64,000 nucleotides of DNA from positions 434,001-498,000 of the forward strand of contig JAILHF010000051.1 of assembly GCA_024696005.1 (NCBI GenBank). The letters run 5' to 3'. The notes below the pieces were generated by a model, which was given only the letters and a program-made list of their open reading frames with translations, did not search any database and was not told the origin of the DNA. The stretch comes from Lachnospiraceae bacterium. GTDB lineage: Bacteria > Bacillota > Clostridia > Lachnospirales > Lachnospiraceae. Shown here piece by piece: positions 44,968-64,000 of the stretch (within the stretch, counting starts at the first letter, position 1; every line of letters starts with the position of its first letter). The position numbers and the translations under genes were made by a program.

Positions 44968-44996
44968 AAAATACAACAGGACCGTGATAATGTCAA
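44968..44996 (-). promoter_or_regulatory. topA: SigA-type promoter of topA-codY
   Basis: Minus strand TTGACA (44996-44991), a 17-nt spacer and TATTTT (44973-44968). The leader of about 50 nt contains a normal ribosome site. Confidence 0.7.
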
Positions 44997-44999
44997 GAC

Positions 45000-45029
45000 A
45001 AAAAAATCCCCCACCCGAAGGTGGGGGAT
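45000..45029 (-). terminator. Intrinsic terminator of the pilus operon
   Basis: On the minus strand a 10-bp GC-rich stem (ATCCCCCACC with GGTGGGGGAT) closes a TTCG tetraloop, followed directly by a run of T. It lies 18 nt after the last pilin gene and just upstream of the topA promoter, so it insulates the two units. Confidence 0.95.
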
Positions 45030-46967: not shown

Positions 46968-47006
46968 GTTATCCTCCTTCCCTTTCAACGCCTTCCGGCT
47001 ATCTTA

Positions 47007-47570: not shown

Positions 47571-47580
47571 AGACACCTCC

Positions 47581-49164
47581 TTATTCCTTGGACCAGTTCG
47601 AGAACGAGATCATAGGCTGTGCACTTGCATCGGAATCTCCTCCGGCCGCCCCCTTAAACTCACGGAGGGTCTTCTCCATTTCCTTGTCCAGGAAATTATC
47701 AAAGGGGAAATAATTCTCGTTCGGCTTAGACACATCAAAGTAGAAAGGCTTGCTGTCATCATCATTCGTGAACTTCTCAAGCGTGATGCCCCCCAGCTTG
47801 CAGCGGTTGGGGTCACCCTCAATGGTTTTCAGATTGTCGACAGTAAGGGTGGAACTCGGCATTGTCACACCGTTATCCGTCTTGGTCTTGACAAACAGCT
47901 TCCTGGCTTTTTCAAAGCTCGCATCATCCATGGTTCCCCAGGGGAAGCTCCCTCTCTGGACACCGATCTCAAAAACCTGGGACTTATCTACACAGAGGTA
48001 GGTGCAATTCGTCAGCTTACCCTGAAACATAGACGGGCAGCCTCCGGAAATGATCAGGCAATTCTCATATTCCACGCTATCAGGTACATTGGACTGGTTC
48101 GTAAGATAGATGGCACTCACACCGTCCCCGTAAACAATGGCGTCATCCTTGTTCAGACCGCCGTTCTGACACAGATCACGGAAATCCTTCTGATTGTACT
48201 TCATGTCCTTTTCCGAGGATGCATTGCTTTTATGAACATGCATGTACTCAGAAACCAGCTTATTGCCGAGGCCGCCGTCATAAGCGGCATAATTTTCCCA
48301 CTTCACACCGCCGGAGCCCTTATTTTCGCCGTTTCCGAACGTCTCAATGTTTCCGCTTGCCCCGTCACGATAGTAAAGATCTCCGCCCACAAAAAGATGT
48401 CCGGATCCGTTAACAGTGATCTTTCCGCGTACATAGGTCGTCCCGTTCAGGTAAAGCTTTCCTCCGCTCTGAATGGTAAGATCACCGTCGATGAAACAGA
48501 AGTTCCCCATAAAAGTCACATTGGAATGTTCCCCTACCCGCAGGGCATCGTTTCCGAGATGCGTATTCGCTCTGACGTAGATGTCGCCGCCGAAATACTG
48601 GCTGCTCTCCTTAAGGGAAAGCGGGCTGTCAGAAAGGATGCTGAAATCATTCAGTCTGCCGGGCGCATCGGAGCTGGAAGGGAAACCGATCTTGATATCG
48701 GTCACGATGCTGCTCTCATACCCCGACTTCGTAGTGGTGGTAACTTTGATGCCTCTGAGATAGATATAATTGCCTTTCTCCTCATAGGAAGCAACGCCCG
48801 TTCCGTCATAGATGCAGCTTACCTTCGCACTGGCAATATCGGGTAATACACCGTTTCCGCTTCCGTATCCGATCAGCTTCTGCAGATTGCCTGTATTAAC
48901 AGTGCTGGAACCGGCTTGCAGATAGCCGCTAAGCTTCGTTCTCGGATCGTCAGAAGCATAGCTCATCTGCTTGACCTGCGCAAGCATATCCGCCATGGCG
49001 TATTCAGCCGTATAGAAATTATCCGAAGCCTGCGCGCGCATTCCCTTCATCTTAAAGTTCATGCTCGACATAAAGAGCAGCGAACTTGCCAGGATCGCAA
49101 TGAACAGGATCCCGATCAATACGGCGACCAGTGCTGCTCCCCTGTTCCCTTTCATTCTCCTCAT
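47581..49164 (-). CDS. PilX/GspK-like minor pilin with beta-helix repeats
   Basis: 527 residues. The N-terminus KGNRGAALVAVLIGILFIAI is pilin-like but lacks the usual Glu at +5, as in PilX or GspK tip proteins. A central stretch (about 190-270) shows short beta repeats (DLTIQSGGKLYLNGTTYVRG) like a right-handed beta helix. GGAGGAG precedes the ATG. It lies between two E5-containing pilins. Confidence 0.8.
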   Translation of the reverse strand: MRRMKGNRGAALVAVLIGILFIAILASSLLFMSSMNFKMKGMRAQASDNFYTAEYAMADMLAQVKQMSYASDDPRTKLSGYLQAGSSTVNTGNLQKLIGYGSGNGVLPDIASAKVSCIYDGTGVASYEEKGNYIYLRGIKVTTTTKSGYESSIVTDIKIGFPSSSDAPGRLNDFSILSDSPLSLKESSQYFGGDIYVRANTHLGNDALRVGEHSNVTFMGNFCFIDGDLTIQSGGKLYLNGTTYVRGKITVNGSGHLFVGGDLYYRDGASGNIETFGNGENKGSGGVKWENYAAYDGGLGNKLVSEYMHVHKSNASSEKDMKYNQKDFRDLCQNGGLNKDDAIVYGDGVSAIYLTNQSNVPDSVEYENCLIISGGCPSMFQGKLTNCTYLCVDKSQVFEIGVQRGSFPWGTMDDASFEKARKLFVKTKTDNGVTMPSSTLTVDNLKTIEGDPNRCKLGGITLEKFTNDDDSKPFYFDVSKPNENYFPFDNFLDKEMEKTLREFKGAAGGDSDASAQPMISFSNWSKE

Positions 49165-49190
49165 AATGTTCTCCTCCTTCTGCGCTGCTC

Positions 49191-50159
49191 TTACTTATTG
49201 ATACTCTTATTCAGGATCCCCGAATGAAGCTCTGCGATCGGGGGATCCTGGAAGGTATTCGAACCATCCTCCGCAAAGCGCCCTACCCAGAGCTTCTTCG
49301 CCGGATCGTAGTGATACTCGTATACCTTAACGATAACTTCATATGTAAAATAGGTATCGGCCGCCTCGTAGCTTCCGCCGCCCACGGGTCTTCTCATCTC
49401 AGCCTTGCCGTTGTTCTGCGTATGGGAACGGGGCAGGAATGTTACGGTCGCATCATAGAAGCGGTTGTCCTTCTGAATGCGGCTGTAAAGCATATAGGTG
49501 GTCTTGGGAACCCCCTTCCCGGAAGAATGGGTAGGATCGGCAAACTGTACGTTTCCCGTAAAGCCGAAGTACAAAAGCTTGTCAAAGTTCGTCTTCATAT
49601 AATCCTCATAGGTCATGGTCGGATCAAAACCCAGCTTCAGATCCTGAATAGCCTTCCCGGCCATCACCTGGTCTTCCGTCTCTGCAGCTGTTCTCTTGTG
49701 ACAGTCATCCGCTCCAACACTTATGTATGTAGACTCAAAATCCCCATGGAAATTCCGGGTTGTCATGGGGGCACCGCTCTCCAGGATCTTCTTGCCCGGA
49801 TCGATGCCGCCGACATGCCCCATGTTATACCAGTTGTCATTGATACTGGAAAGCGCGAGCTTCGCACTGGAAGACTCGTCTCCCACAGATGTTGTAAAGC
49901 CGGTGGGCGCGGCGCACAACGCCATGACCACTTCCTCATAGGTCTTGCTCTTGATGCCTTCCATAATGGAATTGGCAACATCGGTCGCGACCATCACATC
50001 ACGGCCCCTCTTGTTCACCTGGATGGCCGTGACAAAGGAACGCATCACCGGCGTAATGATCACGGCAAACAGGGCCAGCGCGATCATCACCTCAAAGACC
50101 GTCACTCCGGCCGAACCCTTTCTGAACCAAGCCAACAGTCCCTTTCTTCTTTTTTTCAT
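49191..50159 (-). CDS. Minor prepilin, PilV/GspI-like
   Basis: 322 residues. A long basic leader (KKRRKGLLAWFRKGSAG) is followed by VTVFEVMIALALFAVIITPV, with Gly -1 and Glu +5. The next segment DVMVATDVANSIMEGIKSKT resembles PilV. I chose ATG 50159 with GGAGGAG upstream. A 10-G run lies a short distance upstream. Confidence 0.85.
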   Translation of the reverse strand: MKKRRKGLLAWFRKGSAGVTVFEVMIALALFAVIITPVMRSFVTAIQVNKRGRDVMVATDVANSIMEGIKSKTYEEVVMALCAAPTGFTTSVGDESSSAKLALSSINDNWYNMGHVGGIDPGKKILESGAPMTTRNFHGDFESTYISVGADDCHKRTAAETEDQVMAGKAIQDLKLGFDPTMTYEDYMKTNFDKLLYFGFTGNVQFADPTHSSGKGVPKTTYMLYSRIQKDNRFYDATVTFLPRSHTQNNGKAEMRRPVGGGSYEAADTYFTYEVIVKVYEYHYDPAKKLWVGRFAEDGSNTFQDPPIAELHSGILNKSINK

Positions 50160-50187
50160 GCGCTCCTCCTCCATTTCAGAACTACCG

Positions 50188-50214
50188 CCTCCCCCCCCCC
50201 GGAAAGGGGGGAGG
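50188..50214 (-). other. Homopolymeric C/G tract and hairpin upstream of the PilV-like gene
   Basis: Ten consecutive C (50191-50200, G on the transcribed strand) form part of a 9-bp stem CCTCCCCCC/GGGGGGAGG in the 72-nt gap. No U run follows. It could slip during replication or slow ribosomes and RNases. Confidence 0.6.
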
Positions 50215-50231
50215 ATAAAACACAGATCGTA

Positions 50232-51110
50232 TTACTCTTCCGGAACTACATCTTCCAATTCGAAGTCAAAGCCTTCGCCTTCTTCACCTTCCAGCGCTTT
50301 TCTCTCCATCTCTTCCAGATAGAGTTCAAACAGCTGATGCGTATAGAGTGCATCCGGGCTGAGCGGTCCGAAGACGTTCTCGCCCTGCAGGCCACGCATG
50401 CCAAGCTCGTCGATGTCCTTGAATACAGGCACGGGATCGAGCACTCTGCCAGGTCCGGCGATCGCCCACTGTTCGATCTGCATCTCGCCTTCCAGCTCGC
50501 CGGAATCGGGATCGTAATCGACAGTGATGCTCTTGTAGATCATCGGGTCCTCGTAATTCAGGACATAATCCAGCATATAGCGCAGGCCTTCATAATGACA
50601 CTTGAAGGTTAGCGTGGAATCGTTGATGACACCCATCAGGTTGGTCCCGTAGTCCTCATCGCCGATGGCGATGTAATCGTTGTCACCGTATCCTACCGAG
50701 CCGATCAGGAACGTGGTGTCGCCGTCGATCCCGCTGTAACCGAACCTGGGCGTCTCATCATCGTCATCGTCAAGCAGCTTTGCCATATTCTCGCTGGCCG
50801 TTTCGATGGAAGATACTTCCAGATACTGCATGAACATCGTGTAGTTTTCCTGTGCGATCTCTGCAGGGAAGGAAGCGATCAGGTCGTCGCGCTCCTTCTG
50901 CATGCGTGCGGTCTCGGCGATATAAAATTCGCGGTTCTGGTTCATCTCCTGCAGTTCCTTCAGGCGGATATCCAGGTCCGCATTTGTTGCTTCAATTGAT
51001 TTGGTATCCTCGCGCAGTCCCTTCGTATAGAATGTATACGGAAGAACAATGATCGCGACGATCAGCAATACCAGTATGATCTTTGAGTCTCTGTCAGACA
51101 TATTAAGCAT
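50232..51110 (-). CDS. PilO-like pilus alignment protein
   Basis: 292 residues. One N-terminal membrane helix (about 11-29) is followed by a coiled coil (DLDIRLKELQEMNQNREFYI) and a ferredoxin-like domain with ITVDYDPDSGELEGEM-type sequence. This is the PilO/GspM layout. The ATG overlaps the PilM-PilN stop (TAATG). PilO forms the inner alignment complex with PilN. Confidence 0.8.
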   Translation of the reverse strand: MLNMSDRDSKIILVLLIVAIIVLPYTFYTKGLREDTKSIEATNADLDIRLKELQEMNQNREFYIAETARMQKERDDLIASFPAEIAQENYTMFMQYLEVSSIETASENMAKLLDDDDDETPRFGYSGIDGDTTFLIGSVGYGDNDYIAIGDEDYGTNLMGVINDSTLTFKCHYEGLRYMLDYVLNYEDPMIYKSITVDYDPDSGELEGEMQIEQWAIAGPGRVLDPVPVFKDIDELGMRGLQGENVFGPLSPDALYTHQLFELYLEEMERKALEGEEGEGFDFELEDVVPEE

Positions 51111-53014
51111 TACTGCTCACCCCCTTCCTCTTCGGTAGCGTCAGCCGGTGCTTCCTCTTCGGGCGCCTGGGCTTCTTCTGCCGCCTTCAAAGCTTCCTGC
51201 TCTTCCGGGGTAAGGGTAAATCCGATGTGGCAGCTTGCTTCATATACAACCTGTCTCTGCATGACGGTCTGGATCATCTCGATTCCGTCCAGGATGACCA
51301 TTCCGACTTCATATTCCACATATTCCTTCGGGAAATCCGGGATGCGGGTCTCATCGACATCCTCAAGGTCTTCGGCATCAATCAGTTCAACCGGTTCCTC
51401 TTCTTCCTCGTCCTCTTCCCCTTCCCCTTCGGGTACATAATCCTCGGTCCAGTAGATCGGATTTCCGTCCTCATCGTAACCGATGATCATGATGTAACGC
51501 CACAGATCGTCAACAGCCGAGATCTTGAAGTTGCGCACGTAATCCAGGCTGCCGATCTTGAGCAGCACATCCGCCACTTCGTTCTTCGCCGTCTCGTGCC
51601 AGCCGCTGGTCAATTCAAAGGTCACTTCACCGTCAACGCAGGTGATCGTCGTGATGTGGGAGTCCTTCGGAAGCAGTCTTTCCAGATCATCGATGAACTG
51701 GACGAGGTATTCATTGTCATTGTGCGTGCCGAGCTCGAAGGCCTTGACCTGGAGATACTCTGCTTCCGCTTCTTCGTAAGCGGCTTTGATCTCCTCGATA
51801 TCCTTGATCTTCTCGATCTCGGCTTCCAGACGCTTGCGCTCGTCATCAACCTTCTTGTGCTGGTAGATGGAAATGCCGGTAAAGACCGCGCTTCCCACAA
51901 ACGCTACCAGGAATGCGTACTTCAGATACTTGATCAGGTCCGAAGACTCGATCAGGCTCGACTTCTGCCCGGAACCGATGTTCAGGTTCATGGGATCGAT
52001 GATCGCACCGATGTTGGGCAGGTAACGGAGCACTTCCTCTGCGGTCAGTGCAGCCTGTCCCTTGATGGATACGCCGGCAAGTGTATCGAAGTGTTCCACC
52101 GGAGCACCGAGCTCACGCTGGAGGATCTTCTCGATACCGGCAATGGCGGAACCTTCACCGAAGATCTTGATACCCTGCAGCAGTTCGCCGGGGTTCTTGG
52201 TTCTGTGGTATTCCACCGCACGTCCGATACCGTTTACCAGGTAGGAAACCGTCTGTGCATATTCATCTGCCGTGACGTGCTGATCCAGAAGGGCCTCGTT
52301 GGAAAGCAGCGTTTTCGCGTCTTTCTCCGAGATCTTCTTGACATCCATCAGGGCATTGATAACTGCCGTCTTACCGTAGTTGACGCTACGCTGCAACACG
52401 AGCACGTGTCCGCGCATGACGTTGACGTAGGTTGCGTCTTTTTCGATCTGAAGGACCAGATCGGTACGCCCTTCCTGCATCTGCAGGGCCAGAAGCTGAA
52501 TAACGGAATTACCGAAGTAATCGATGCTCTTAACGTTCAGTTTCAGGTCTTCCGCAACTTCGTAATAGCCGCGGACAAGATCCATGGGGGCAGCCACTGC
52601 GGATACGCGGTACTTGCGACCTTCCTCTGTCATATAATCATCGAGGATCGAATAGGCGAAGAGGTAATCCCCCGAACCACTCATCGGGAAATACTCGCCG
52701 GAGTTTGCCTGCAGTACCTGTCCGAGTTTTTTGGTGTTTTTGAAGTAGTTGATCTCTACTTCCTTGCTGGCGATCTTTTTACTTGCAATGGTGAAGATGA
52801 CATCCTTTGCCGTGAATCCTCTTCCGAAGATGGCAGTCCGGATCGCTTCTGCCACGGACGATACATCTACGATGTAGCCGTCATTGTAGCTTCCCGCCGG
52901 AGTCGGGATCTCTGCCGCATTGCTCAGCACGACCGTCTTGTTGTTGTTCCTCTGCATCTCGGCAATACGTGTAACATCGCCCGAGATGTAGATTGTCAGT
53001 GCCTTGTTGGCCAT
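51110..53014 (-). CDS. PilM-PilN fusion protein
   Basis: 634 residues. Residues 1 to about 350 are an actin-like PilM ATPase domain (motifs TIYISGD, VDVSSVAEAIRTAIFG and ALLDQHVTADEYAQTVSYLV). A membrane helix (about 368-388) and a PilN-like coiled coil plus ferredoxin-like domain (DDLERLLPKDSHITTITC) follow. The tail is very acidic. PilM and PilN are usually separate proteins that bind each other, so this joins the cytoplasmic and membrane parts. AAGGGGAG precedes the ATG. Confidence 0.85.
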   Translation of the reverse strand: MANKALTIYISGDVTRIAEMQRNNNKTVVLSNAAEIPTPAGSYNDGYIVDVSSVAEAIRTAIFGRGFTAKDVIFTIASKKIASKEVEINYFKNTKKLGQVLQANSGEYFPMSGSGDYLFAYSILDDYMTEEGRKYRVSAVAAPMDLVRGYYEVAEDLKLNVKSIDYFGNSVIQLLALQMQEGRTDLVLQIEKDATYVNVMRGHVLVLQRSVNYGKTAVINALMDVKKISEKDAKTLLSNEALLDQHVTADEYAQTVSYLVNGIGRAVEYHRTKNPGELLQGIKIFGEGSAIAGIEKILQRELGAPVEHFDTLAGVSIKGQAALTAEEVLRYLPNIGAIIDPMNLNIGSGQKSSLIESSDLIKYLKYAFLVAFVGSAVFTGISIYQHKKVDDERKRLEAEIEKIKDIEEIKAAYEEAEAEYLQVKAFELGTHNDNEYLVQFIDDLERLLPKDSHITTITCVDGEVTFELTSGWHETAKNEVADVLLKIGSLDYVRNFKISAVDDLWRYIMIIGYDEDGNPIYWTEDYVPEGEGEEDEEEEEPVELIDAEDLEDVDETRIPDFPKEYVEYEVGMVILDGIEMIQTVMQRQVVYEASCHIGFTLTPEEQEALKAAEEAQAPEEEAPADATEEEGGEQ

Positions 53015-53039
53015 TCTTGCTGCTCCCCTTTCATATTAG

Positions 53040-53091
53040 ATTATACGGCTCTTTCAAAAGCCTGTATCATAGCAACGGCCGCAGGCCGTGA
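53040..53091 (-). promoter_or_regulatory. Possible internal promoter upstream of the PilM-PilN gene
   Basis: Minus strand TATAAT at 53045-53040, with no strong -35. A small hairpin ACGGCC/GGCCGT (53076-53090) and a GGCTTTT/AAGAGCC pair lie upstream in the 91-nt gap. Weak evidence. Confidence 0.35.
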
Positions 53092-53105
53092 TATGCTCAC
53101 TTTAC

Positions 53106-53816
53106 TCAGAACGTAAAAAACGTTCCGATATACCAATCGATCACTCTGTCGCCCCAGATCATCGCAACGACCGCTCCCAAAGCAAGATAAGGCCCGAAAG
53201 CCAATACATGCTCCTTTTTGCTGATGATCATACGAAGTCCGTGTATCAACACCCCCAAAACGCATGCCAGCAAAAGCACCAAAAGGATCTTTTTCCACCC
53301 CAGGAATAAACCGAGCGCCGCCATCATCTTGACATCACCGAAGCCCATGGCCCTGCCCCCGCTGATCAGCCCGATCGCAAGGAACAAACCGCTCACCAGC
53401 ACGGCTCCGATCAGGTATTCGTACCAGTGTCCCAAATCTGTCATCAGGCGTCCCGCTCCGCAGAACGCGATCAGAAGATTCAGTTCAGGCGGCAATTCAT
53501 AGATCGCCAGATCCACCATGGACAAAGCCGACAGCAGACCGCAGCAGATGCCGCACAAAAGGAAATACCAATCCGCACCGTATTCCTGAAGAAGGATAAG
53601 CCAGAGGATCACCTGCAGGATACAGAAAGCAAACAGGCGGCCTCCCTGTCCCTTCTTTCTGCAGGCTGCCATTCCATCCGGCACCCTCATCTTTTCCAAG
53701 GTTCTGTTGCGTTCCTCCTCCGGCCCCAGACAAATCTTAAAAGCAGCATAATGATACATTATGGCACCAAAGAAAAAAGCAGCACAAATTGCACATAAAA
53801 AATAATATGGTTTCAC
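53106..53816 (-). CDS. Type IV prepilin peptidase (A24 family)
   Basis: 236 residues with about seven membrane helices. The two catalytic aspartates are Asp102 (SMVDLAIYELP) and Asp161 (GFGDVKMM), the GxGD signature. It cleaves prepilins after the -1 Gly. The N-terminal Cys4 zinc region of PilD-type methyltransferases is absent. The start appears to be GTG 53816, 1-2 nt after the predicted transcription start, so the mRNA may be leaderless; ATG 53759 is an alternative that would cut the first helix. Confidence 0.9.
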   Translation of the reverse strand: MKPYYFLCAICAAFFFGAIMYHYAAFKICLGPEEERNRTLEKMRVPDGMAACRKKGQGGRLFAFCILQVILWLILLQEYGADWYFLLCGICCGLLSALSMVDLAIYELPPELNLLIAFCGAGRLMTDLGHWYEYLIGAVLVSGLFLAIGLISGGRAMGFGDVKMMAALGLFLGWKKILLVLLLACVLGVLIHGLRMIISKKEHVLAFGPYLALGAVVAMIWGDRVIDWYIGTFFTF

Positions 53817-53871: not shown

Positions 53872-56433
53872 TTATTGATTGATGTCGGTCTTTTGACGAA
53901 GCAGCTTCCATTCGTTTTCATCGAAAATGTTTCCGCCCACCGAATAGACGTTCCCATCCGACGTATCCAGTTCCGCCCCGTTCTTTTCCACATCAAAGAT
54001 GTCGATCCTGCTGAGTACGGAAAAGAAAACTTTCTGTCGGGCGTTCTTTGCCGTCCCGTCGATCCTGCGGCCGGTAAAGGGATTGACCGGCTCCTCCACG
54101 ATCCCTTCCAGGGCCAGGCTCGGCACATCCGCATTGGTCATGAATTCCTCCGAAACGCCGAATTCCCCGTCCCCGAAATCCTTGACCAGGAGCAGGGGAT
54201 TGACCCGGGTCGCATCCTCGCCGCCTTCCAGCTTCACATCCAGAAGCCCCAGCCCGGTGCCGTGATCGGCTGCCAGGATAATGCGGGTGTTTTCGTACAC
54301 CCCTTCCGCTTTCAGGCACTCGATCCACCTTCCCAGGGCCAGGAGCGACGCCATGTTCACATGATAATGGCTGACCCGCTCATCCGTCCAGCCCGGAAGA
54401 TCACAGGGGTAGCCCGGCGCTTCGCACCCGCGGTTGTCGACCTTCGCGGACGGGATGTAATCGGGAAGCTGCAGGCGGCAGGGGCTGTGCGTCGTCTGGT
54501 TCGCCAGCATGATGAAACTCCCCGCCCCGCCGGCATCGTAATCCGTCAATTCCGGCAGCGCATCCAGAACACTGTAGGCATTCCAGAAGGCAGGGCTCAC
54601 ATCGGACGCCGGCACCACGCTCATGTAGCCGCCTTTTCCGTAAACGTAAGCTGCCAGCGGAGGAGGCAGCGCACGGAACAGGCTGTAAAACACGAAATTC
54701 CGCTCCACATCGATATCGACAAAGCCCTCATAATCCGCATACTTTCCGTCCGTAACGATGGCACTTACCCCCTCTGTCCCGGCATACAGTTCCTCCCAGG
54801 GCGTCCGATGGTAGTGCGCTTCCAGGGGGTCATCGCTCATGACGACCTCATACCCCGCACCGGCAAACAGCTTCGGCAACAGCAGAAGAGCCTCATCCGT
54901 TTTTTCAATATAAAACGCATCCTGTCTCTCATGCATCCCCGCGGGCGAATACTCATAACCGCCGTAGACCGCCGGTGCCCCCAGACGGGTACTCCCCCCG
55001 AAGGAGAGCGTGTTCGGATACCAGGTAAAACCGGAATAGACCGCCGGAAGTTCGGGTCTTTCTTCCATTATATATGGAATAAAAGCCGAGACCGCCCGGT
55101 CCAGCATGATGACGACCACGTTCTTCCCGCTCCGGCTCAGATGAAAGACAGGCTCCTTCGCTTCATCCGCCGCAAGCGCCGGCCCCTGATCCTTCTCATA
55201 GCGCGCCAGCTGCTCTCCGATCCGAAACAGCCCCGGCAGAGAGGCGAGGAAAAGACTCGCGCAGAGGATGCGAAGCAGCGTGCGCCACAAAGCCTCCTTC
55301 TCTTTCAGAAACCAGTACACGAGCAGGGGCAGGGCTATGAGCAGGAAGATCCCGATGCTGACCTCCGTATCCGACCAGGAAGGCAGACTGTCATAGATAA
55401 GCTGCCCGGAGATCGTCCCCAGCTTTCTGTGAAACAGCAAAAGAGAGAGACTCCCTGCCGTAAGAAGACATCCCAGCAGGAAACGGACAAAGCGTCTCCC
55501 CCCTTTTCCCAGAAGGGACAGATAGATCCCGCCCCACAGAAGAAAGAGCCCCGCATAATCCAGCGCAGTGGTGTAGATATAGTGCCAGGGAGAAACAAAG
55601 TGGAAGGGATCCACGAAATCCGCCGGAGAAGCGGAAATGCACAGCACCGGGATCAGCAGTCCCAGAAGCAGTGCGGCTCCGACGGTCTCCTCGGCCAGAA
55701 AGCCCCCTTTGCCCGCCTGCTGCTCGGCCGTTTTCTTTTTCGGCACAGGGACCAGATTCTTTCCGAGGGACAGAAGATTATTGCACAGCCAGTACAGCAC
55801 CAGACCGGAAGGGCAGTCATACAGAAGAAGCAGGAACAAAAGCGCCAGGAGGACAGGCTGGATCAGTTCGCTCTTCGGCCGTTTTCCCACGAAGACGACC
55901 GCCGAAAGCAGATTGACCGCTGTCATCAGGATCGGGAGCAGATGGATGCCCGTTCCTGCGATCTCAAGCAGGGAATCCGGCCGGTCCAGTGCTCCCAGAA
56001 GAGGCACCTCCGTTCCCTTCAGCGCCGGATGCTCCGAAAGGAAATGATAGGCAGCGATAAAGAAGGGGATCTGCAACAGCAGGGAAAGGCTGCCCTTCAG
56101 GGCGGCCAGCGGATCCCGATGAATCTTTCTGTACAGGGCCTGCCGCATCATGATGCGTTCGTCCCCGGAAAAGGTCCTGCGGATATGCTCGTTCCAGGCT
56201 CTCACCCTCTCCTGCTTATCCCTTCCCGCCTCCTGAAGCCTTTCCGCATTCCGGTACAGCGGCAGCGTCAGCAGAAAGACCAGGCCGCTCAGGCCGATGA
56301 TGGCGAAAACCACCCTGTCTCCGGAGATCTGCATCAGCAGGTAGAAAAACAGATCCATCAGATATTCCAGCGGACTGATCACGAGTCGGTACAGAAAAGA
56401 AACTGCGGCTTTGCCTACCATCGGTTCCCCCAT
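53872..56433 (-). CDS. YidC/Oxa1-like domain fused to AlkP-superfamily (sulfatase) domain, paralogue C
   Basis: 853 residues. Residues about 20-235 match the YidC/Oxa1 core: LPLYRNAERLQ, a charged cytoplasmic hairpin (70-105), LLLQIPFFIAAYHFL, LHLLP-type and SGLVLYWLCNNLLSL. About five more helices follow (250-400). The outer domain starts near 435: metal-binding Asp445 (VVVIMLDRA), likely nucleophile Thr482 (GGSTRLGAP), TTHS..LQLPDY (about 647) and AADHG (about 722). The tail has FMTNADVP..NPFTG and GNIFDENEW. LTA synthase-like enzymes move phosphoglycerol in this way; the substrate here is unknown. It overlaps the GT-C gene by 19 nt. Confidence 0.88.
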   Translation of the reverse strand: MGEPMVGKAAVSFLYRLVISPLEYLMDLFFYLLMQISGDRVVFAIIGLSGLVFLLTLPLYRNAERLQEAGRDKQERVRAWNEHIRRTFSGDERIMMRQALYRKIHRDPLAALKGSLSLLLQIPFFIAAYHFLSEHPALKGTEVPLLGALDRPDSLLEIAGTGIHLLPILMTAVNLLSAVVFVGKRPKSELIQPVLLALLFLLLLYDCPSGLVLYWLCNNLLSLGKNLVPVPKKKTAEQQAGKGGFLAEETVGAALLLGLLIPVLCISASPADFVDPFHFVSPWHYIYTTALDYAGLFLLWGGIYLSLLGKGGRRFVRFLLGCLLTAGSLSLLLFHRKLGTISGQLIYDSLPSWSDTEVSIGIFLLIALPLLVYWFLKEKEALWRTLLRILCASLFLASLPGLFRIGEQLARYEKDQGPALAADEAKEPVFHLSRSGKNVVVIMLDRAVSAFIPYIMEERPELPAVYSGFTWYPNTLSFGGSTRLGAPAVYGGYEYSPAGMHERQDAFYIEKTDEALLLLPKLFAGAGYEVVMSDDPLEAHYHRTPWEELYAGTEGVSAIVTDGKYADYEGFVDIDVERNFVFYSLFRALPPPLAAYVYGKGGYMSVVPASDVSPAFWNAYSVLDALPELTDYDAGGAGSFIMLANQTTHSPCRLQLPDYIPSAKVDNRGCEAPGYPCDLPGWTDERVSHYHVNMASLLALGRWIECLKAEGVYENTRIILAADHGTGLGLLDVKLEGGEDATRVNPLLLVKDFGDGEFGVSEEFMTNADVPSLALEGIVEEPVNPFTGRRIDGTAKNARQKVFFSVLSRIDIFDVEKNGAELDTSDGNVYSVGGNIFDENEWKLLRQKTDINQ

Positions 56434-57962
56434 TCCAGCTCCGAATCCCGGCCCAGACCATACTCTTCCTCAAAATACCGCACGGGCGGATGCTCCTCAT
56501 CCAGCTCCAGCAGGGAAAAGCAGTCCTCCCCTCCCACCGGTACCGAATAGAAGAGGATCCTGTGCGCTCTTTTCTCCGCCATTTCCTGCCAAACCCAGAA
56601 TCTGCGGTCCTTATCGGGAACGTAAAACGTCACCGGCTCCTCATAGCAAAGAGCAGCCGCCCCGTATGCCAGCACTCTGGCATAGGATGTGCATATCGCC
56701 ACATCCGCCCCGCTCTGTCTGACCGCCTCTTTCAGCATCCCGGTCTGCTTTTGCAGCTCATCCGTCCGCATCATGGCGATGAAGCTGGCCTTCCAGACCA
56801 TACTGTCCGGATCGGCCAGGGCCCGTTCGAACAGAAAGCCCTTGCAGGCAAGGATCAGGCAGAGCAAAAGCAGGGCTGCCCCGCAAAAGAGATGCGACAT
56901 CTCTTTCCCTGCGCCCTCCGAGCGCATGGAATCCGGGATCAGCACTGCCAGATAAGCCCAGAACAGGAGCATCCGCAGCTGCCCGTACAGAAGGCTGTCG
57001 TCATCGTATCCGTAGGAACGAGACAGACCTAACATCAGGATCGAAGCCGCGACCGAGGCCAGCAGCAGCCAAGCCGTTTCCTTCCTGCCTTTCGCAAAGC
57101 AAAAGACAAGGAGAAGGATCAGGAAAAGGGGGATCAGGACCACGCCCGCCTTCCCGGCAAAGCAATACTCGGAAAACCTCGCCGGCAGGACGCTTAAGTT
57201 GCGCAAAAACACCTCGGCGGAAAAGCCGCCTCCCGCCACATGATACAGGGCATATTCCGGCTGCAGGACATAGAAAAGGCAGCGTGCCCCGTAAACGCAG
57301 CCTCCGGCCGCAGTACCGAGCAGCACGGGAAGCCAGCTTCCTTTTGTGAACCATTCCTTTTTCTCCTTCAGGATCATCCGGAAGATCCCGAGAGCCAGAA
57401 TGATCAGCGCCGTCTCTGTCATGACAAAACCGATCATCCCAAGGAATGCGGCAAGAAGCTTTTTCCAAAAGCCCGCCTTTTCATCCCAAAGCAGCTTTAC
57501 CGCAAGCACCGCAAACGGAAGCCCCGGGATAAAGGAGCGTGGAACGGAGGTGAGCACATCCCAGGCCCAGCCGCATCCGGCGGCAAGCAGCAGGATCCCG
57601 AAGGCCACATGCGGCCTTCTGCCGCGATAGGCCGAAACACTCAGCAGCACAAAGGGAAAAAATCCCCACAGCATGCTGACGGTAGGAAGCGCCACGTATA
57701 ACGGCCAGCCCATGAGATAGAGCGGAACGGCAAGAAGGGATTCCCACATGCTGCCGTAATCCTGACCGAAAAAGCAGGGCTCCGGAAAATGGCCGTGGGC
57801 GAAATGCACCGTGCCGTACCACATCAGCGTCTGATCGTCATCGGTGTAGCAATAGGAATAGCGGATCAGCACATAGATGCGCCAGCCCAGCAGGATAAGC
57901 CAGCCCATTGTCAGGACCAGCGCCTGAGGGTCCGTTTTCTTCTTTTCGTTCTTCTCCGTCAT
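56415..57962 (-). CDS. Polytopic GT-C-like membrane protein
   Basis: 515 residues with about ten or more membrane helices. The first outer loop has a TDDDQTLMWYG motif and FFGQDYGSMWE, which resembles the acidic loop of GT-C glycosyltransferases that use lipid-linked sugars. The C-terminal 90 residues form a soluble domain. The ATG overlaps the stop of paralogue B by 4 nt, and the 3' end overlaps paralogue C by 19 nt, so the three are co-translated. Proposed role: adding a sugar to the polymer handled by its neighbours. The family call is by eye and moderate. Confidence 0.65.
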   Translation of the reverse strand: MTEKNEKKKTDPQALVLTMGWLILLGWRIYVLIRYSYCYTDDDQTLMWYGTVHFAHGHFPEPCFFGQDYGSMWESLLAVPLYLMGWPLYVALPTVSMLWGFFPFVLLSVSAYRGRRPHVAFGILLLAAGCGWAWDVLTSVPRSFIPGLPFAVLAVKLLWDEKAGFWKKLLAAFLGMIGFVMTETALIILALGIFRMILKEKKEWFTKGSWLPVLLGTAAGGCVYGARCLFYVLQPEYALYHVAGGGFSAEVFLRNLSVLPARFSEYCFAGKAGVVLIPLFLILLLVFCFAKGRKETAWLLLASVAASILMLGLSRSYGYDDDSLLYGQLRMLLFWAYLAVLIPDSMRSEGAGKEMSHLFCGAALLLLCLILACKGFLFERALADPDSMVWKASFIAMMRTDELQKQTGMLKEAVRQSGADVAICTSYARVLAYGAAALCYEEPVTFYVPDKDRRFWVWQEMAEKRAHRILFYSVPVGGEDCFSLLELDEEHPPVRYFEEEYGLGRDSELEWGNRW

Positions 57963-60625
57963 TGTCCGCTCTGCTCCATCTTTTCCCAGTTTTCTTTGAT
58001 AAAGATATTATCATGCACAGTATACCACGGCGCATCGGAAGTATCAAAAGCCGTTCCGCCCTGAAGCTCCCATATCCCCGTATAGGTCACTTCCATCGGT
58101 CCCTGCTCTTTCCGGCTCGAATCGACGGGATTCCCGGTAAAGGGATTGACCGGATCTTCGATCAGCCCTTCCAGCACCAGGACCGGCGCATCCGCATTGG
58201 TCATGAATTCCTCCGACACCGTGAAGCCGTGGGCGTCGAAATCCTTGAACATCAGAAGACAGTTGAACGCTTCCATGTCCGTGCCGTCATCCTGGATCAG
58301 GTCATCAAACTGTCCGAAGGGATAGCCGTGGTCCGAAGCGATCACGATCCTGGTATTGTCATATACCCCCTGCTCCCGCAGCAGATCGAACCAGTCCGCG
58401 AGGAACTGGTACGCGGCCACATTGACATGATAATGCCGGATCTGGCTCATGGTCTCCAGGTGCATGACCCTTCCGTCCACGACGCGGTCTCCGTTCAGGA
58501 CGTATCCGCTGTTATCGATCTCACCATCCTCCGGCAGGGTATAATCCGGAAGCTGCAACACGGTTCCCTCATGGGTAAGATAATTGCAGAACACATTCAG
58601 CTGTCCGGCCCCGTCCGTAAACGTTGTTTCTTCCCGTAACGACGAGAGCACCGCAAAAGCCGTCTCGAAATCCAAAAGGGATTCGCTTCTGGCCGGGTTC
58701 ACTTCATAGTATAGGTAATGCTGCAGAAAATAGGGCGCGATGCGGAACATACTGTAATCCCGGAAAGCCAGGGAAAGCTTTTCCTCATCCATCCCCTGCC
58801 CGGCCCGCAGCTTCCGCTCGGGTGCATGGGCACGCACGCCTTCGATCCCGTCGAAAACGGAGTTATCCCCCGATGAGACATAATTCCCGTAAGGAACGGA
58901 AGTGACGGACACCCCGTATCCGTTTTCCGAAAAGATCGTCGGCAGAAGCGTCAGCGCTTCGTTGTGTTTTTCCGAAAGGAGCTTGTCCGTTCTTGCATTC
59001 ATGGCCGACGGGGTATATTCATACCCGCCGTAGAGCGTGGGTGCCCCCAGATTCGTGGACCGTCCCATGGAGATGGAGTTGGGATACCAGCAAAAGCCGT
59101 CAAACTTCTCCCTAAGCCCTTCCCTTTCTTCCATTATATAGGGAAGCATGCCGCCGACCGCCCGGTCCAGCATGATCAGCACCACGTTCTTCTCCGTCTT
59201 CGACAGGACCATCAGCTCTTCCGTCCCCTCGTCCTCCCGGGCGCTCCGAAGCTCTTCCTCTTTCCCCTTCGCCAGGGCATCGCCGCCTTCGTAAAGGCAG
59301 AGCCCCAAAAGGCCCAGCGCCAGAAAGGGCAGAAGCCGCTGCCAGGGAAAACGCACACACAGCTGCCAGAGCACCGCAGTCAGGAGCATCAGCAGAGCCA
59401 GGCTCAAGACCACCCACGCCCAGGGGAAGGTGGGATCGTTCTCGTAGCGCATATTGCTGAGAAGCAGGCCGTTTTTGTTCCCCCAGAAAAAGAAGTCGTA
59501 AAAACCGAGAAGCACAAGGATCATGAAAAGCCGCCCGACGACAGGGCGCTTCTTTTTCTCGCTCATGAGCAGCAGGAGGCTGCACCACACAAAACTTACG
59601 CTTCCCCAGAAGGAAAGGTTTTCCTTTAAAAGCCCCGCAAGGCTTCGGATATCCCGCACCGGAAAATCCGCCGGTGCCGCATAGATCACGCTCAGCGGAA
59701 GGTAGACTCCCGCGAACAGAAAAAGGCAGCATTCACAGAGGAAATACGAAAGCCCCGCAAGCGGCTTCTCTTCTGCTTTCCGCTCGGGCAGCTTCCCTTT
59801 GCTCTTCAGATAAAGCAGCACCACGGGGACATGCAAAAGGAGCAGCGTGAGCAGGGAGACCAGGGAATCCTGAAACGGAAAATCCGACAGCTGCAGCACA
59901 TCGCTTCCGTTGTAGATCGTAAGCGTGAAAAACACAATATAGCACAGATAGGCCGCCGCCAAACCGAGCTTTTTGGCGTATTCCTGCCAACGGAGCCGGA
60001 TGAACAGGTTCTTCAGCAGTGAGAACAGGTTGTTGAAGCTCCAATACAAAACCAGGCCGGCCGGCGAACGGTACAAAAGGAGCAGAAAGACCGCCGGGAG
60101 CAGCAACATCGACAGTCTTTCCTTCATCGTCACCCGTTCCTGATACAGAAATACCGAGACCAGATTGAGCCCGGTCATGATGAGCGGGAGCAGATTGACA
60201 GACACCGCTCCCAGATGAAGCGCCGCGTCCGGCTGCCAGAACCAGGGATCCTTCACGGGTGCGGCTTCTCCGAGATAGCGGTACGCCGCCATAAAGAAGG
60301 GGATCTGTAAAAGCAGCGGCAAAAGCTTTCCGAGCCCCTGTGCCGGCGAGAATTTTTTGATCCCGTAATAGTACTGGGTGATGAGGGCCCGTTCATCCCC
60401 GCGGAAGGTCCTGCGGATATGAGTAAGCCACCCCTCCATGTCCGCTTCCTTCTTTCTCTGCGCCTCCTGCATGGCATCTGCCCGCAGATACAGGGGCAGT
60501 GTGAACAGGCTCACTGCGATGCTCAGCACCAGCAAAGCAGCCTGGGGACTCCGCGTCGCCATCAGGCTTCTCCGAAACAGGACATCCATCAGATATTCGA
60601 TTGGCGTGAGAAGAAAATCCAGCAA
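57959..60625 (-). CDS. YidC/Oxa1-like domain fused to AlkP-superfamily domain, paralogue B
   Basis: 888 residues. It begins LDFLLTPIEYLMDVLF, aligning without gaps with paralogue A. The YidC-like core contains TLPLYLRADAMQEAQRKKE, LLPLLLQIPFFMAAYRYLG and SPAGLVLYWSFNNLFSLLKN. Further helices lie at about 215-450. The outer domain has Asp487 (VVLIMLDRA), Thr524 (GRSTNLGAP), LTHEGTVLQLPDY, SDHGYPFGQFDDLI, FMTNADAPVLVLEG and the tail NIFIKENWEKM. The start is TTG 60625, a few nt after GGGAGG. It lies 22 nt after paralogue A. Confidence 0.88.
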   Translation of the reverse strand: MLDFLLTPIEYLMDVLFRRSLMATRSPQAALLVLSIAVSLFTLPLYLRADAMQEAQRKKEADMEGWLTHIRRTFRGDERALITQYYYGIKKFSPAQGLGKLLPLLLQIPFFMAAYRYLGEAAPVKDPWFWQPDAALHLGAVSVNLLPLIMTGLNLVSVFLYQERVTMKERLSMLLLPAVFLLLLYRSPAGLVLYWSFNNLFSLLKNLFIRLRWQEYAKKLGLAAAYLCYIVFFTLTIYNGSDVLQLSDFPFQDSLVSLLTLLLLHVPVVLLYLKSKGKLPERKAEEKPLAGLSYFLCECCLFLFAGVYLPLSVIYAAPADFPVRDIRSLAGLLKENLSFWGSVSFVWCSLLLLMSEKKKRPVVGRLFMILVLLGFYDFFFWGNKNGLLLSNMRYENDPTFPWAWVVLSLALLMLLTAVLWQLCVRFPWQRLLPFLALGLLGLCLYEGGDALAKGKEEELRSAREDEGTEELMVLSKTEKNVVLIMLDRAVGGMLPYIMEEREGLREKFDGFCWYPNSISMGRSTNLGAPTLYGGYEYTPSAMNARTDKLLSEKHNEALTLLPTIFSENGYGVSVTSVPYGNYVSSGDNSVFDGIEGVRAHAPERKLRAGQGMDEEKLSLAFRDYSMFRIAPYFLQHYLYYEVNPARSESLLDFETAFAVLSSLREETTFTDGAGQLNVFCNYLTHEGTVLQLPDYTLPEDGEIDNSGYVLNGDRVVDGRVMHLETMSQIRHYHVNVAAYQFLADWFDLLREQGVYDNTRIVIASDHGYPFGQFDDLIQDDGTDMEAFNCLLMFKDFDAHGFTVSEEFMTNADAPVLVLEGLIEDPVNPFTGNPVDSSRKEQGPMEVTYTGIWELQGGTAFDTSDAPWYTVHDNIFIKENWEKMEQSGQ

Positions 60626-60647
60626 AAAAGCCTCCCGTCAGGATCCG

Positions 60648-63332
60648 TCACCTGTCGATCCTGCTCCAGTTTTCCGGGTCAAAGATATTGCCCCGGACAC
60701 GATACCAGCTGTCCGCAGGCTCATCATAGCTGTTCGTGTCGGACAGATGGAAGCCGTGGGATGTGGTCACGATCGCCTCCTTCTCCGAAGGATCCTTTAT
60801 TCTGATGTCAGCACCGCTGAAGGGATTTTTTGCATTTTCGATGACCCCGTCCAGAAGCAGCGCCGGCGCATCCGCATTCGTCATGAAGTCTTTGTTCTCC
60901 GTAAAGCCGTGGGCATTGAAATCCTTCATCATCAGCAGACAGTTGAATCGCTGGACGTCTACATCCTCGCTGAGGATCAGATCCTCAAACATACCCGCCT
61001 CACTGCCGTGGTCCGATACGATGATGATGCGGGTATTGTCATACACACCCTCCCGCTTCAGCAGATCCAGCCACTCCGCCAGCAGCTTGTAGGAAAGCAC
61101 GTTCACATGGAACAGCGCCCTGCTGCCGCCGCTGTCATACTTCATCTCTCTGCCTTCCGCCTCCAGCCTGGCGGGAACATCGACTGTGCTGTTGTCCACC
61201 GGCATGCTCAGGGAGAAGCTGTAATCCGGCAGCTGGATCTGCCTGGATTCGTGGGTCAGGTTGCTGTCCCATTCGATATAGTGGTTCGTATCCCCGTCTT
61301 CGATCTCGGTCAGGGCCGGCAGTTCGCTCATGACCTTATAGGCCTTGTAAAATGCAAGATAGCCTCCCATGGCCACATCGTCCCAGCCGCAGTCCGTATA
61401 GAGGAATCTCTGCATGAACACCGGCGCCAGCTTGAACACGCTGTACTCGGCAAATCCCCTTCCGTAGGAATCCGGATCGCTGTCCGCCACAAAGAAACCT
61501 CCCGAATATCTGCGTTCCAGATTGGCTGCCGTGGTATTCTTCATCTTCTTGAAGCCGCTCATGTCTCCGCCCCAGGTATAATCCGCATAGGGAAGATCCG
61601 CCAGGGATACCTGCCAGCCCGCCTCGCCGAAGATCGTGGGCAGTACCTGCAGAGCCTCAAGGTGCTTGCTCTCCATCGACTCGGAGCTCCGCTCCTCCAG
61701 TGCGTAGGGACTATACTCATATCCGCCGAATAATGCGGGGGCCCCCATGTTCGTATGCCCCGCAAAGGAAAGGGCATCGGAATACCAGGTAAAACCGTCA
61801 AAGCTTGCCTTTAATTCCGGGCATTCCTGCATGATGAAGGGCACAAAGGTCCCGACAGCCCGATCCAGCATGATCAGCACCACATTCTGTCCCGACCTGC
61901 TGAGCGTAAAGAAGGGCGTGCTGCTCTTCGCCTCCTCATTGATCCTGGCCTCGGAGGCAAGCGCATCCCCGATCTTTACAAAACGGTATCCGCTGACCAG
62001 CACCAGACTCAAAAGGAGCAGAACCGTGACCGCCCTGTCGATCTTAGCCAGTCGGTCCGAAAGGACCAGGAGCAGGATGACTGCCGCAAGAAAGATCGCG
62101 ATCCCGGGCAGAACGATCTGATACCCGTAGAGCGGCGTCTGTTCGTAGCGCGAATTTGCCATCAGTATCCCGTGATCGTTGGACCAGAAGAAATGATCCG
62201 CCAGGGCCAGGATGGTCCCGATCCCCAGGAGCCTTCCAAAGATCCCCCGGCCCTTCTTATCCAGCAGGATATAGATCAGGTTACCCCAGACAAACCAGGT
62301 CCCCGCTGCAGAAAGGAGCGGGATGCGCATCAGCGGCAGCAGGTCTCCCACGTGCCGGATCGGAAACTCCGTTGGAGAATCCTCCACGATCCCTGTGATG
62401 ATGAAGACCGCCGACAGAAGAAAGAGCACCGCCTCCTTTATAAGCATGGTCCCCCAGCCGGGGTCCTCCGCTTCCCTCCGCCAGAGCCTGATCTTTTTAT
62501 CCTTCAGGAAAAGGACCACAAGAGCCGGGATCATGTAGGACATCACGATGCAGACCGAAACGAAAGAAGCCAGGGTATCATCGCGGTCCATCTCCGGAAC
62601 ATAGCAGCCCGCAAACGTCGTCACCGAATACATGTACATGCCGGCCAGAAAACCGCCTCCGATGCAGATCTTCTTCACGATCCGCTGCCAGCCGAGACGG
62701 GTAACGATGTTCCTGACCAGAGAGAAGGCATTGTTGAAGGTCCAGTAGAGGACCATGGCCTGGGGACAGGGATACAGGACCACCAGGAAAAGCAGCGGGA
62801 GCAGAGCCATCTGCAGCTTCTCCTTCAGCCCCAATCCTTTCCCCTTCACATAGATAAATGCCGAGAGCAGATTGATCACCGTCATCAGGATGGGAAGGCA
62901 ATTGATCCGCAGTTCTCCGAGCCGGATCAGACCGTCCGATTCGGTAAAGAGCTTTCCCGGGATCCCCTCCACTGCTCCGAGCATGTTATATGCCGCGAGA
63001 AAAAAAGGGATCTGCAAAAGCAGCGGAAAGAGCGTCCTGAGAGCAAAAGCCGGCTTATAGCCGCAGATGCGGTAATAATGCTGCAGCATGTAACTGCGTT
63101 CCTCTCCGCGGAAGACCTTCCGGATCTTTCCCTCCCATTCCTTCATGGAATCGCGCTTTCTGCGCTCCTCCTCCTGCATCGCCTCCGCCTGCCGGTAAAA
63201 GGGCATGGTCAAGAAGCCCACCGCGAGACTCAGGGCCAGAAGCGAGATATGGGTATTCAGTGTCACATGATAAAATGCGAAAAAAAGAACACGCAGAAGA
63301 TATTCGATTGGTCCGATCAGCAGCTTATACAT
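60648..63332 (-). CDS. YidC/Oxa1-like domain fused to AlkP-superfamily domain, paralogue A
   Basis: 894 residues from the chosen start. It begins MYKLLIGPIEYLLRVLF. The YidC-like core has TMPFYRQAEAMQEEERRKR, FPLLLQIPFFLAAYNMLG and YPCPQAMVLYWTFNNAFSLV. The outer domain has VVLIMLDRAVG, the nucleophile site AGHTNMGAP, LTHESRQIQLPDY, VSDHGSEAGMFEDLI, FMTNADAPALLLDG and the tail RGNIFDPENWSRI. I chose ATG 63332 because it matches the paralogue B start and lies 7 nt after a -10 box; ATG 63341 and TTG 63368 lie in or before the promoter. First gene of the operon. Confidence 0.86.
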   Translation of the reverse strand: MYKLLIGPIEYLLRVLFFAFYHVTLNTHISLLALSLAVGFLTMPFYRQAEAMQEEERRKRDSMKEWEGKIRKVFRGEERSYMLQHYYRICGYKPAFALRTLFPLLLQIPFFLAAYNMLGAVEGIPGKLFTESDGLIRLGELRINCLPILMTVINLLSAFIYVKGKGLGLKEKLQMALLPLLFLVVLYPCPQAMVLYWTFNNAFSLVRNIVTRLGWQRIVKKICIGGGFLAGMYMYSVTTFAGCYVPEMDRDDTLASFVSVCIVMSYMIPALVVLFLKDKKIRLWRREAEDPGWGTMLIKEAVLFLLSAVFIITGIVEDSPTEFPIRHVGDLLPLMRIPLLSAAGTWFVWGNLIYILLDKKGRGIFGRLLGIGTILALADHFFWSNDHGILMANSRYEQTPLYGYQIVLPGIAIFLAAVILLLVLSDRLAKIDRAVTVLLLLSLVLVSGYRFVKIGDALASEARINEEAKSSTPFFTLSRSGQNVVLIMLDRAVGTFVPFIMQECPELKASFDGFTWYSDALSFAGHTNMGAPALFGGYEYSPYALEERSSESMESKHLEALQVLPTIFGEAGWQVSLADLPYADYTWGGDMSGFKKMKNTTAANLERRYSGGFFVADSDPDSYGRGFAEYSVFKLAPVFMQRFLYTDCGWDDVAMGGYLAFYKAYKVMSELPALTEIEDGDTNHYIEWDSNLTHESRQIQLPDYSFSLSMPVDNSTVDVPARLEAEGREMKYDSGGSRALFHVNVLSYKLLAEWLDLLKREGVYDNTRIIIVSDHGSEAGMFEDLILSEDVDVQRFNCLLMMKDFNAHGFTENKDFMTNADAPALLLDGVIENAKNPFSGADIRIKDPSEKEAIVTTSHGFHLSDTNSYDEPADSWYRVRGNIFDPENWSRIDR

Positions 63333-63338
63333 AAGAAA

Positions 63339-63367
63339 CATTTTACCTCTTTGACACCCATAAATCA
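63339..63367 (-). promoter_or_regulatory. Candidate SigA-type promoter of the YidC-AlkP operon
   Basis: Minus strand TTGATT, a 17-nt spacer and TAAAAT, ending 7 nt before ATG 63332. The -35 matches 4 of 6 and the -10 5 of 6. It predicts a leaderless transcript. Confidence 0.55.
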
Positions 63368-63373
63368 ATACGA

Positions 63374-63402: not shown

Positions 63403-63431
63403 CATAAGAAAAAAGATCCGAGGTAGTGACG

Positions 63432-64000
63432 ATGTCTGACGAAAACAAAAAGCTTCTTCAGAACAATAACCTGTATCCTGTTTTTGCCGCCGTTCTGACC
63501 GCGGTGCTCTTTCTCACCATCCTGGCGTTTTCTTCCATACTCGGTTACGGGAACAGGACCATCTTAAGCGGCGACCTGTATGCGCAGTATACCGCCTTTA
63601 TCCGTCACTTCCTGGAAGTCCTGAAGGGAAAGGGAAATCTGTATTACAGCTTCTCCATCTATCTCGGAAATCCCGCGGCTTCCACCTTTGCCTATTATTG
63701 CCTGAGTCCCTTCAATCTTCTTTATCTGATCCCCGGGATCTCCATGTCCGCCATGACCATCCTTGTCGTGACACTCAAACTTTCCCTGGCAGCCGCTTCT
63801 TTTCAGCTCTTTCAGGGCGGCTTTCTGAAGAACAGGACTCTCTTCTCCGTCATGTTCTCCGTCTGCTACGCCCTTTCCTCTTTTTCCGTCATGATGTCCA
63901 TGCACATCATGTGGCTGGATGCACTCTATATCCTGCCGGTGCTGATCCTTCTGATCGCACGCTTTGTGAATGGTTCTTCCTTTCTTCCCCTTATCCCGGC
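63432..64000 (+). CDS. YfhO-family polytopic membrane protein, truncated at window edge
   Basis: 189 complete codons before the right edge. The N-terminus has a membrane helix (about 14-36), then an outer loop with GYGNRTILSGDLYAQYTAFI and YYSFSIYLGNPAASTFAYYC, then further helices. The D-x-x-x-Q-Y pattern in the first loop is typical of YfhO/GT-C-like proteins. Bacillus YfhO takes part in lipoteichoic acid glycosylation. It is divergent from the YidC-AlkP operon, suggesting a shared surface-polymer role. GAGG lies 8 nt before the ATG. Confidence 0.8.
   Translation, partial: MSDENKKLLQNNNLYPVFAAVLTAVLFLTILAFSSILGYGNRTILSGDLYAQYTAFIRHFLEVLKGKGNLYYSFSIYLGNPAASTFAYYCLSPFNLLYLIPGISMSAMTILVVTLKLSLAAASFQLFQGGFLKNRTLFSVMFSVCYALSSFSVMMSMHIMWLDALYILPVLILLIARFVNGSSFLPLIP

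Follow-up and report, generated by a model that had tools for sequence, protein, structure and literature searches.

The described systems closest to the genes considered here are YidC/Oxa1 insertases (PF02096); the EptA, LtaS and OpgB enzymes, in which a multi-helix membrane part precedes an outer domain of the alkaline phosphatase (AlkP) superfamily; the TagB/TagF/TarF transferases (PF04464); the LicABCD phosphocholine and PntC phosphonate pathways; and transmembrane glycosylation by CsbB, GtcA and YfhO. In phosphonate tailoring of cell surfaces, the late steps are called enigmatic in the abstract of PMC6697681, a paper that names LicD-like phosphotransferases nearby. Three genes, here termed F1, F2 and F3, were analysed in a stretch of 64,000 nt from the genome of a Lachnospiraceae bacterium (the window; positions are those of the window unless marked as contig or locus positions, and ‘own’ refers to this genome). 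Each encodes a YidC-like membrane core joined to a C-terminal AlkP-type domain (the YidC-AlkP fusion). We see an even chance that the fusion forms the membrane-embedded and outward-facing half of a transmembrane system in which small phospho- or phosphono-groups, of choline-phosphate, 2-aminoethylphosphonate or ethanolamine-phosphate type, reach the cell surface from cytosolic donors, activated with cytidine diphosphate or monophosphate (CDP/CMP), by way of TagF-like, YidC-like and AlkP steps.

The three genes are on the minus strand, as a sequence-only reading of this DNA had placed them. F3 (60648..63368) encodes 906 amino acids (aa) from a TTG at 63368, and in-frame ATGs at 63341 and 63332 are also plausible starts. 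F2 (57959..60625; 888 aa) is likewise called from a TTG, and F1 (53872..56433; 853 aa) is a short form; genes were called by length of open reading frame (ORF) and overlap. The YidC-like cores span residues 41–223 of F3 (62700..63248), 30–210 of F2 (59996..60538) and 42–227 of F1 (55753..56310), with PF02096 scores of 57.1, 65.9 and 65.0 bits against a Pfam cut-off of 35. The AlkP-type domains fall just under the PF00884 cut-off of 25 bits, at 21.8 bits in F3, 20.7 in F2 and 21.7 in F1. The sequence-only observation is confirmed, and the motifs that it quotes are present. The genes had also been called tandem. There are indeed three fusion genes, but a gene for a 515-aa hydrophobic protein (56415..57962, minus strand) lies between F2 and F1, overlapping F1 by 19 bp and F2 by 4 bp. 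This protein, GT-C-like by eye only, matches no family above cut-off in Pfam or NCBIfam. In the PDB, a 64-row profile of the fusion family retrieves chains of YidC (best E 3e-12) as well as of AlkP-superfamily proteins, among them phosphonate monoester hydrolase and choline-sulfatase (E 2e-5 for both). A PHROGs search at E 1e-3 is empty for the three window fusions, and a phage origin was rejected on that result.

The genome has nine such genes and not a triplication. Of its ten PF02096 matches, a single one is an ordinary YidC (contig C68, E 9e-45); the other nine are fusions of 853–930 aa on contig C73, all on the minus strand and within 66 kb (contig positions 487872-554075). Pairwise identity among the nine is 31–47%. 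All nine pass PF02096 (57.1–77.4 bits); PF00884 is above cut-off in two (F7, 38.2 bits; F9, 27.1 bits), below it in six, and not listed for one. A pattern scan of genome contigs gave at least 591 matches, and 547 of these encode relatives. The 76 loci retained contain 103 full-length and eight partial fusions, and 112 fusions were aligned, the nine own copies included. The fusion recurs far beyond chance, and the presence of both domains in one protein across genomes, which had been proposed, is borne out. By record title the relatives are mostly Clostridia, with a few from Treponema, Solobacterium and Eggerthellaceae; most of these are titles of metagenome-assembled genomes with unchecked labels. 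The fusion is present in many copies in bacteria of the gut and rumen. No description of a YidC-AlkP fusion was found in the literature searched by titles and abstract starts, a search whose coverage leaves out most subscription journals, and we are not aware of any described system that combines these parts. The novelty lies in the system and not in the domains, every one of which is a member of a known family.

The active site of the AlkP part is highly conserved. In F3 numbering, D502, T539, H706, D786 and H787 are each invariant in 112/112 aligned fusions, as are N212 and N213 in the YidC part. By their spacing we take the AlkP residues to correspond to the nucleophile of LtaS and EptA and to the metal ligands of these enzymes; the catalytic Thr and the Asp and Asp-His ligands, as assigned in this way, are present in 112 of 112. 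The fusion differs from EptA, LtaS and OpgB in its N-terminal YidC core, and it reaches no named family model. By averaged hydropathy, the linker from YidC core to AlkP domain has five helices in a short form (15/112) and seven in a long form (95/112), with two rows unclassed. The data are consistent with a location of the AlkP domain outside the membrane, since the number of linker helices is odd in both forms and would lead outside if the YidC core ends in the cytosol. Columns conserved at 97% or more number 36/225 in the YidC part, 6/255 in the linker and 46/426 in the AlkP part; the figure for the YidC part argues against its being a mere anchor.

Homology to YidC might mean that the domain is a true insertase that only helps to fold its own or a partner's membrane segments, with the AlkP domain acting as an ordinary surface transferase or hydrolase. 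This is highly improbable. F1, F2 and F3 remain below the TIGR03592 insertase cut-off (66.8, 66.9 and 51.8 vs 84.3 bits), the genome has its separate ordinary YidC, and the fusion occurs in lock-step with a cytosolic-type transferase, as described below. Also different from YidC/Oxa1 proteins is the joining to an outer transferase (or, elsewhere, to a TagF-like enzyme), as is the loss of charge in the groove. At the place of the groove arginine of E. coli YidC, R366, the fusions have Asn (90 of 112) or Ser (17 of 112) and never Arg or Lys (0/112), whereas E. coli has Arg and six other housekeeping rows have Lys (three) or Arg (three). The genome's only ordinary YidC (L001, contig C68:17643-18545) has Tyr at this place. 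The arginine loss was dropped as proof of a non-insertase function because the ordinary YidC also lacks Arg, and in the fusions it may serve as a hint only.

Clustering of neighbouring genes in the 76 loci shows one family that stands out, a PF04464 (TagF-like) protein with an N-terminal segment of the type YIDPGTGSMLF. It is encoded in 58/76 loci and lies 60 bp or less from a fusion in 53/76; 18 loci have no TagF-like gene. Of 111 fusion ORFs, 44 have their nearest TagF-like gene directly upstream, at 60 bp or less and in many cases overlapping (−4 or −1), and 11 more have it directly downstream, in a count whose cluster is short of three TagF-like proteins included in the tally of 58. All 19 partner proteins sampled match PF04464 at E 1e-3 or better, and scores are 55.9 bits for the own protein and 45.9 bits for that of locus L029 (cut-off 22.1). 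The partner differs from TagB, TagF and TarF in its YIDP-motif anchor, in a weak match to the TarF model (20 bits vs 550) and in the choline- or phosphonate-type supply genes alongside.

The two genes also occur together in genomes. In a class sample of 196 genomes, for which 90% completeness was requested, matches at E 1e-80 place fusion and TagF-like partner in the same seven genomes (four genera) and neither in the other 189 (Fisher 5e-13). A genus sample of 35 genomes shows the partner (E 1e-60) in 24/27 fusion genomes (E below 1e-100) and in 0/8 others (Fisher 7e-6), two genomes with only weak fusion matches, G003 and G004, being counted as negative. Linkage and co-occurrence thus make the partnership of the fusion with a membrane-anchored TagF-like transferase, which is new here, well supported. 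In the own genome, nine fusions are accompanied by a single TagF-like gene.

The YIDP-motif membrane segment itself is found at the N-terminus of TagF-like proteins, as a separate small protein or, once, fused to an AlkP enzyme (L092:5738-6055; also L136, L137, L139, L141-L143, L146, L148-L150 and L152). The small YIDP protein of L092, the one scanned, has no Pfam match above cut-off.

The same domains are elsewhere partitioned differently. G003, the only genome of the genus sample that is fusion-negative and positive for the phosphonate enzyme PepM, encodes a 645-aa protein that joins a YidC domain (PF02096, 91.9 bits) to a TagF-like enzyme (PF04464, 47.8 bits); its neighbours in the gene row are PhnW, PepM and a nucleoside triphosphate (NTP) transferase. 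In the other 18 genomes searched there is no full-length relative of this YidC-TagF protein; nine of them match in part at E 1e-5, eight through the YidC part and G025 through a short C-terminal piece. This piece (G025:C47:8867-9139) has 38% identity over 90 residues and two internal stops, in a genome without the fusion, and may be a decayed remnant. In a family sample, YidC-TagF proteins (E 1e-60) are found in 20/397 genomes and 20/334 genera, and both Pfam domains are present in 20/20 proteins examined, of 22. The 20 loci, with rows read by eye because an automatic tally counts overlapping matches, have a YIDP-motif segment in 12, a separate AlkP enzyme in 10, PepM in eight, NTP-CobD-type genes in four and LicA-type genes in three. 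One of these loci (L146:6780-9050) has its YIDP segment joined to an AlkP enzyme (PF00884, 52.4 bits) that adjoins YidC-TagF. The separate AlkP enzymes align to residues 300–906 of the fusion over 375–443 columns with probability 96–99% (11/11 tested, from 10 loci). For EptA the alignment with the C-terminal part of the fusion is far weaker (E 2.7e-4, probability 41%) and lies around the Thr motif; that of OpgB is not significant.

Four parts, the YIDP segment, the YidC-like domain, the TagF-like enzyme and the AlkP enzyme, therefore occur in three partitions, and this recurrence is strong evidence for a single machine. A tree of the YidC parts groups the fusion domains together and the YidC-TagF domains together (Shimodaira-Hasegawa-like approximate likelihood ratio test, 100 and 99), and a common origin of the two kinds is neither supported nor rejected (approximately unbiased test, p 0.304).

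Supply genes point to the kind of cargo. At least one match to nine such proteins in a BLAST search is present in 27/76 loci: LicC-like genes in 17, a count inflated by generic NTP transferases, LicA-like genes in nine, phosphonate genes (PepM or Ppd) in five and NTP-CobD genes in three. Choline-type operons consist of a LicC-like NTP transferase, a LicA-like kinase and a LicB-like transporter (e.g. L042, L043, L060, L062, L076 and L085), and one kinase of the cluster, that of L069, passes the Pfam choline-kinase cut-off (40.2 vs 29 bits). Phosphonate operons have PepM fused to nucleotidyltransferase domains and an iron-containing alcohol dehydrogenase, together with Ppd and PhnW, which are above their NCBIfam cut-offs (one protein of each tested). 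The third kind has an NTP transferase and a CobD-like enzyme (175.5 bits vs a cut-off of 290.55) in one protein, which can be read as an ethanolamine-type supply. PepM is enriched in fusion genomes, in 5/7 vs 10/189 others of the class sample (Fisher 2.5e-5) and 19/27 vs 1/8 others of the genus sample (Fisher 0.011), and in 10 of these 19 it lies 3.2 kb or less from the TagF-like gene. A cargo class of CDP/CMP-activated choline-, phosphonate- or ethanolamine-type groups is thus fairly supported. The kinase, cytidylyltransferase-type, PepM, Ppd and PhnW genes are those of the LicABCD and PntC type, and the difference is that the late step here apparently belongs to the TagF-like enzyme plus the fusion.

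Beside the own TagF-like gene are an NTP transferase, a DUF2284 protein and a PhnW-like class-V aminotransferase (L010:8011-10376; contig C73:514010-516375). An aminotransferase with a very similar N-terminus is found near YidC-TagF in L143 (7530-8624); these genes may make an activated amino-alcohol.

The PF04464 family description includes teichoic-acid polymerases, and this raises the question of whether the TagF-like enzyme builds or decorates a lipid-linked, teichoic-acid-like polymer inside the cell, which the fusion then translocates, extends or attaches outside in the manner of a polymerase or ligase. YfhO and other glycosylation genes nearby, as well as a weak match of the 64-row profile to the lipoteichoic acid (LTA) synthase chain 4uoo (E 0.0045), would suit such a role. 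It is nevertheless distinctly unlikely. Nine fusions to one TagF-like gene do not fit it, and in the 27 loci with any supply genes these are of choline, phosphonate and CobD type and not of glycerol type. Searches of NCBIfam up to E 1 with the three window proteins gave no LTA-synthase model and one match to the phosphoglycerol transferase I model (9.1 bits vs 572). LTA synthase was consequently rejected as the family name, and the lipoteichoic-acid function suggested from sequence alone finds no family model behind it, the match to 4uoo notwithstanding.

A relay from cytosol to surface can be outlined for the system as we read it. Supply enzymes, whose operons are observed, would produce CDP-X or CMP-X. 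The membrane-anchored TagF-like (PF04464) enzyme, if it uses these donors, would attach P-X to a lipid on the inner side of the membrane. The head group would then cross by way of the hydrophilic groove in the YidC-like domain, or be held there, a step that is conjectural throughout. Finally, the AlkP domain would load P-X onto the invariant threonine and pass it to a putative acceptor at the surface. The presence of several fusions per TagF-like enzyme might mean that one donor serves several acceptors. Lipid scrambling is reported in liposomes for E. coli YidC, for Oxa1 and for Get1, and in simulations for the Oxa1-family members tested (PMC10491306). Since the YidC-like domain is joined either to a TagF-like enzyme, which would act inside, or to an AlkP domain, which would act outside, a relay of a lipid-linked group along the YidC-like groove is the simplest reading. 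The sequence alone had suggested a surface machine in which a lipid may be held or channelled by the YidC-like part. This idea agrees with the evidence, as does the layout, and the handling of lipid is the part that we infer.

It is a further and more tentative proposal, one that we rather doubt than believe, that the YidC/Oxa1-fold domain is a dedicated translocator of lipid-linked phospho-groups, in one relay with the TagF-like and AlkP enzymes that carries CDP/CMP-activated groups of choline, aminoethylphosphonate and ethanolamine type to the surface, and that it fills the gap left in these bacteria at the late step of tailoring the surface with phosphonates. A serious rival, even if we think it unlikely, is that the domain is a docking scaffold for the TagF-like and AlkP enzymes; the cargo would be the same, the donor lipids would cross by other means, and the AlkP enzyme would take the group from them, as EptA takes its group from phosphatidylethanolamine. 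Re-partitioning of the domains suits a scaffold as well as a translocator, and the absence of groove charge in 112/112 fusions favours the former. On the other hand, fixed columns are at least as frequent in the YidC part as in the catalytic one, and short operons (L042, L083 and L085) show no candidate translocator other than the fusion, except for a LicB-like gene.

Several findings weigh against the transfer system proposed here. The substrates of PF04464 enzymes may be glycans or polyols and not lipids. Among loci with at least 8 kb on both sides, 7/27 show no TagF-like gene; the fusion genomes G028, G029 and G032 of the genus sample lack the partner; and the Fisher tests take related genomes as independent. 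The positive groove residue is gone in all 112 fusions, yet YidC-TagF proteins keep it (Lys in 19/19 readable), and G209 has both YidC-AlkP and YidC-TagF, so the two architectures are not strict alternatives. None of the nine supply genes searched is present in 49/76 loci. The LicA- and LicC-like proteins tested in NCBIfam pass no named cut-off, and the choline-type name of the cargo is for that reason one we infer. PepM was not found in three of 21 fusion genomes tested, namely the own genome, G017 and G172, and the own PhnW-like aminotransferase scores below the PhnW cut-off. LicD is present in 18/21 fusion genomes, and another route could place such groups; the YidC-AlkP system therefore need not be the sole one, and a genome-wide replacement of LicD by the fusion system was rejected.

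The fusions are interleaved with type IV pilus genes. Those in the window (45048-53816) include PilM (51110-53014; PF11104, 56.6 bits), pseudopilin-like genes and, at the head of the row, a prepilin peptidase gene (53106..53816, minus strand; PF01478, 58.2 bits). PilC, PilB and PilT follow beyond the window (contig C73:509754-513884). Further down from the pilus genes are topA (42861-45014) and a FliF gene (38920-40536). In Neisseria the pilin phospho-form transferase is PptA, and the fusions might similarly decorate type IV pilins or pilin glycans, with the YidC-like part handling the pilin. F1 is 55 bp from the prepilin peptidase gene and the pilus row, F4 adjoins pilC-pilB-pilT, and the layouts in G017 and G028 are similar. 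We give this little credence, as it leaves YidC-TagF and the supply genes unaccounted for, and PilT-like genes are near fusions in 5/76 loci, with a peptidase-like gene in a sixth (L070). Type IV pilus matches lie near sampled fusions in 2/24 other genus genomes (30 loci, among which the fusion of L173 is at a contig end and is not seen in its locus), and a third genome has a pilin-like gene (L097) that the BLAST search for pilus genes missed. Type IV pilin as the general acceptor is not supported by these counts (5–6/76 loci and 2/24 genomes); in the own genome pilin is a possible acceptor.

Divergent from F3 is the first part of a YfhO gene (63426..63998, plus strand; PF09586), the whole of which is at L009:11427-14087. 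Two complete YfhO genes stand there in a row, divergent from the fusions (L009:11427-16705), and a third gene (contig C73:504295-506925) is YfhO-like in appearance. These neighbours suggest that the surface polymer may be glycosylated as well. Close to F8 is a row that encodes an AMP-binding enzyme, an aminoglycoside-acetyltransferase-like protein and a DUF4910 protein (contig C73:537838-541565).

Transmembrane glycosylation by CsbB, GtcA and YfhO (PMC8035078) shares with the transfer system proposed here a logic of lipid loading inside, crossing, and transfer outside; it differs in that the outer part of the fusion is of AlkP and not GT-C type, in that the cargo would be a phospho-group, and in that the parts are of unrelated families. 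If the proposal is true, the relay would be the phospho counterpart of such glycosylation systems. The biological meaning of lipid scrambling by insertases (PMC10491306) would become directly testable, and a protein of YidC fold would be given a role with a cargo other than protein. Surface groups of this kind can influence the encounters of gut bacteria with their host, and the enzymes of late phosphonate surface tailoring would be named for many Clostridia.

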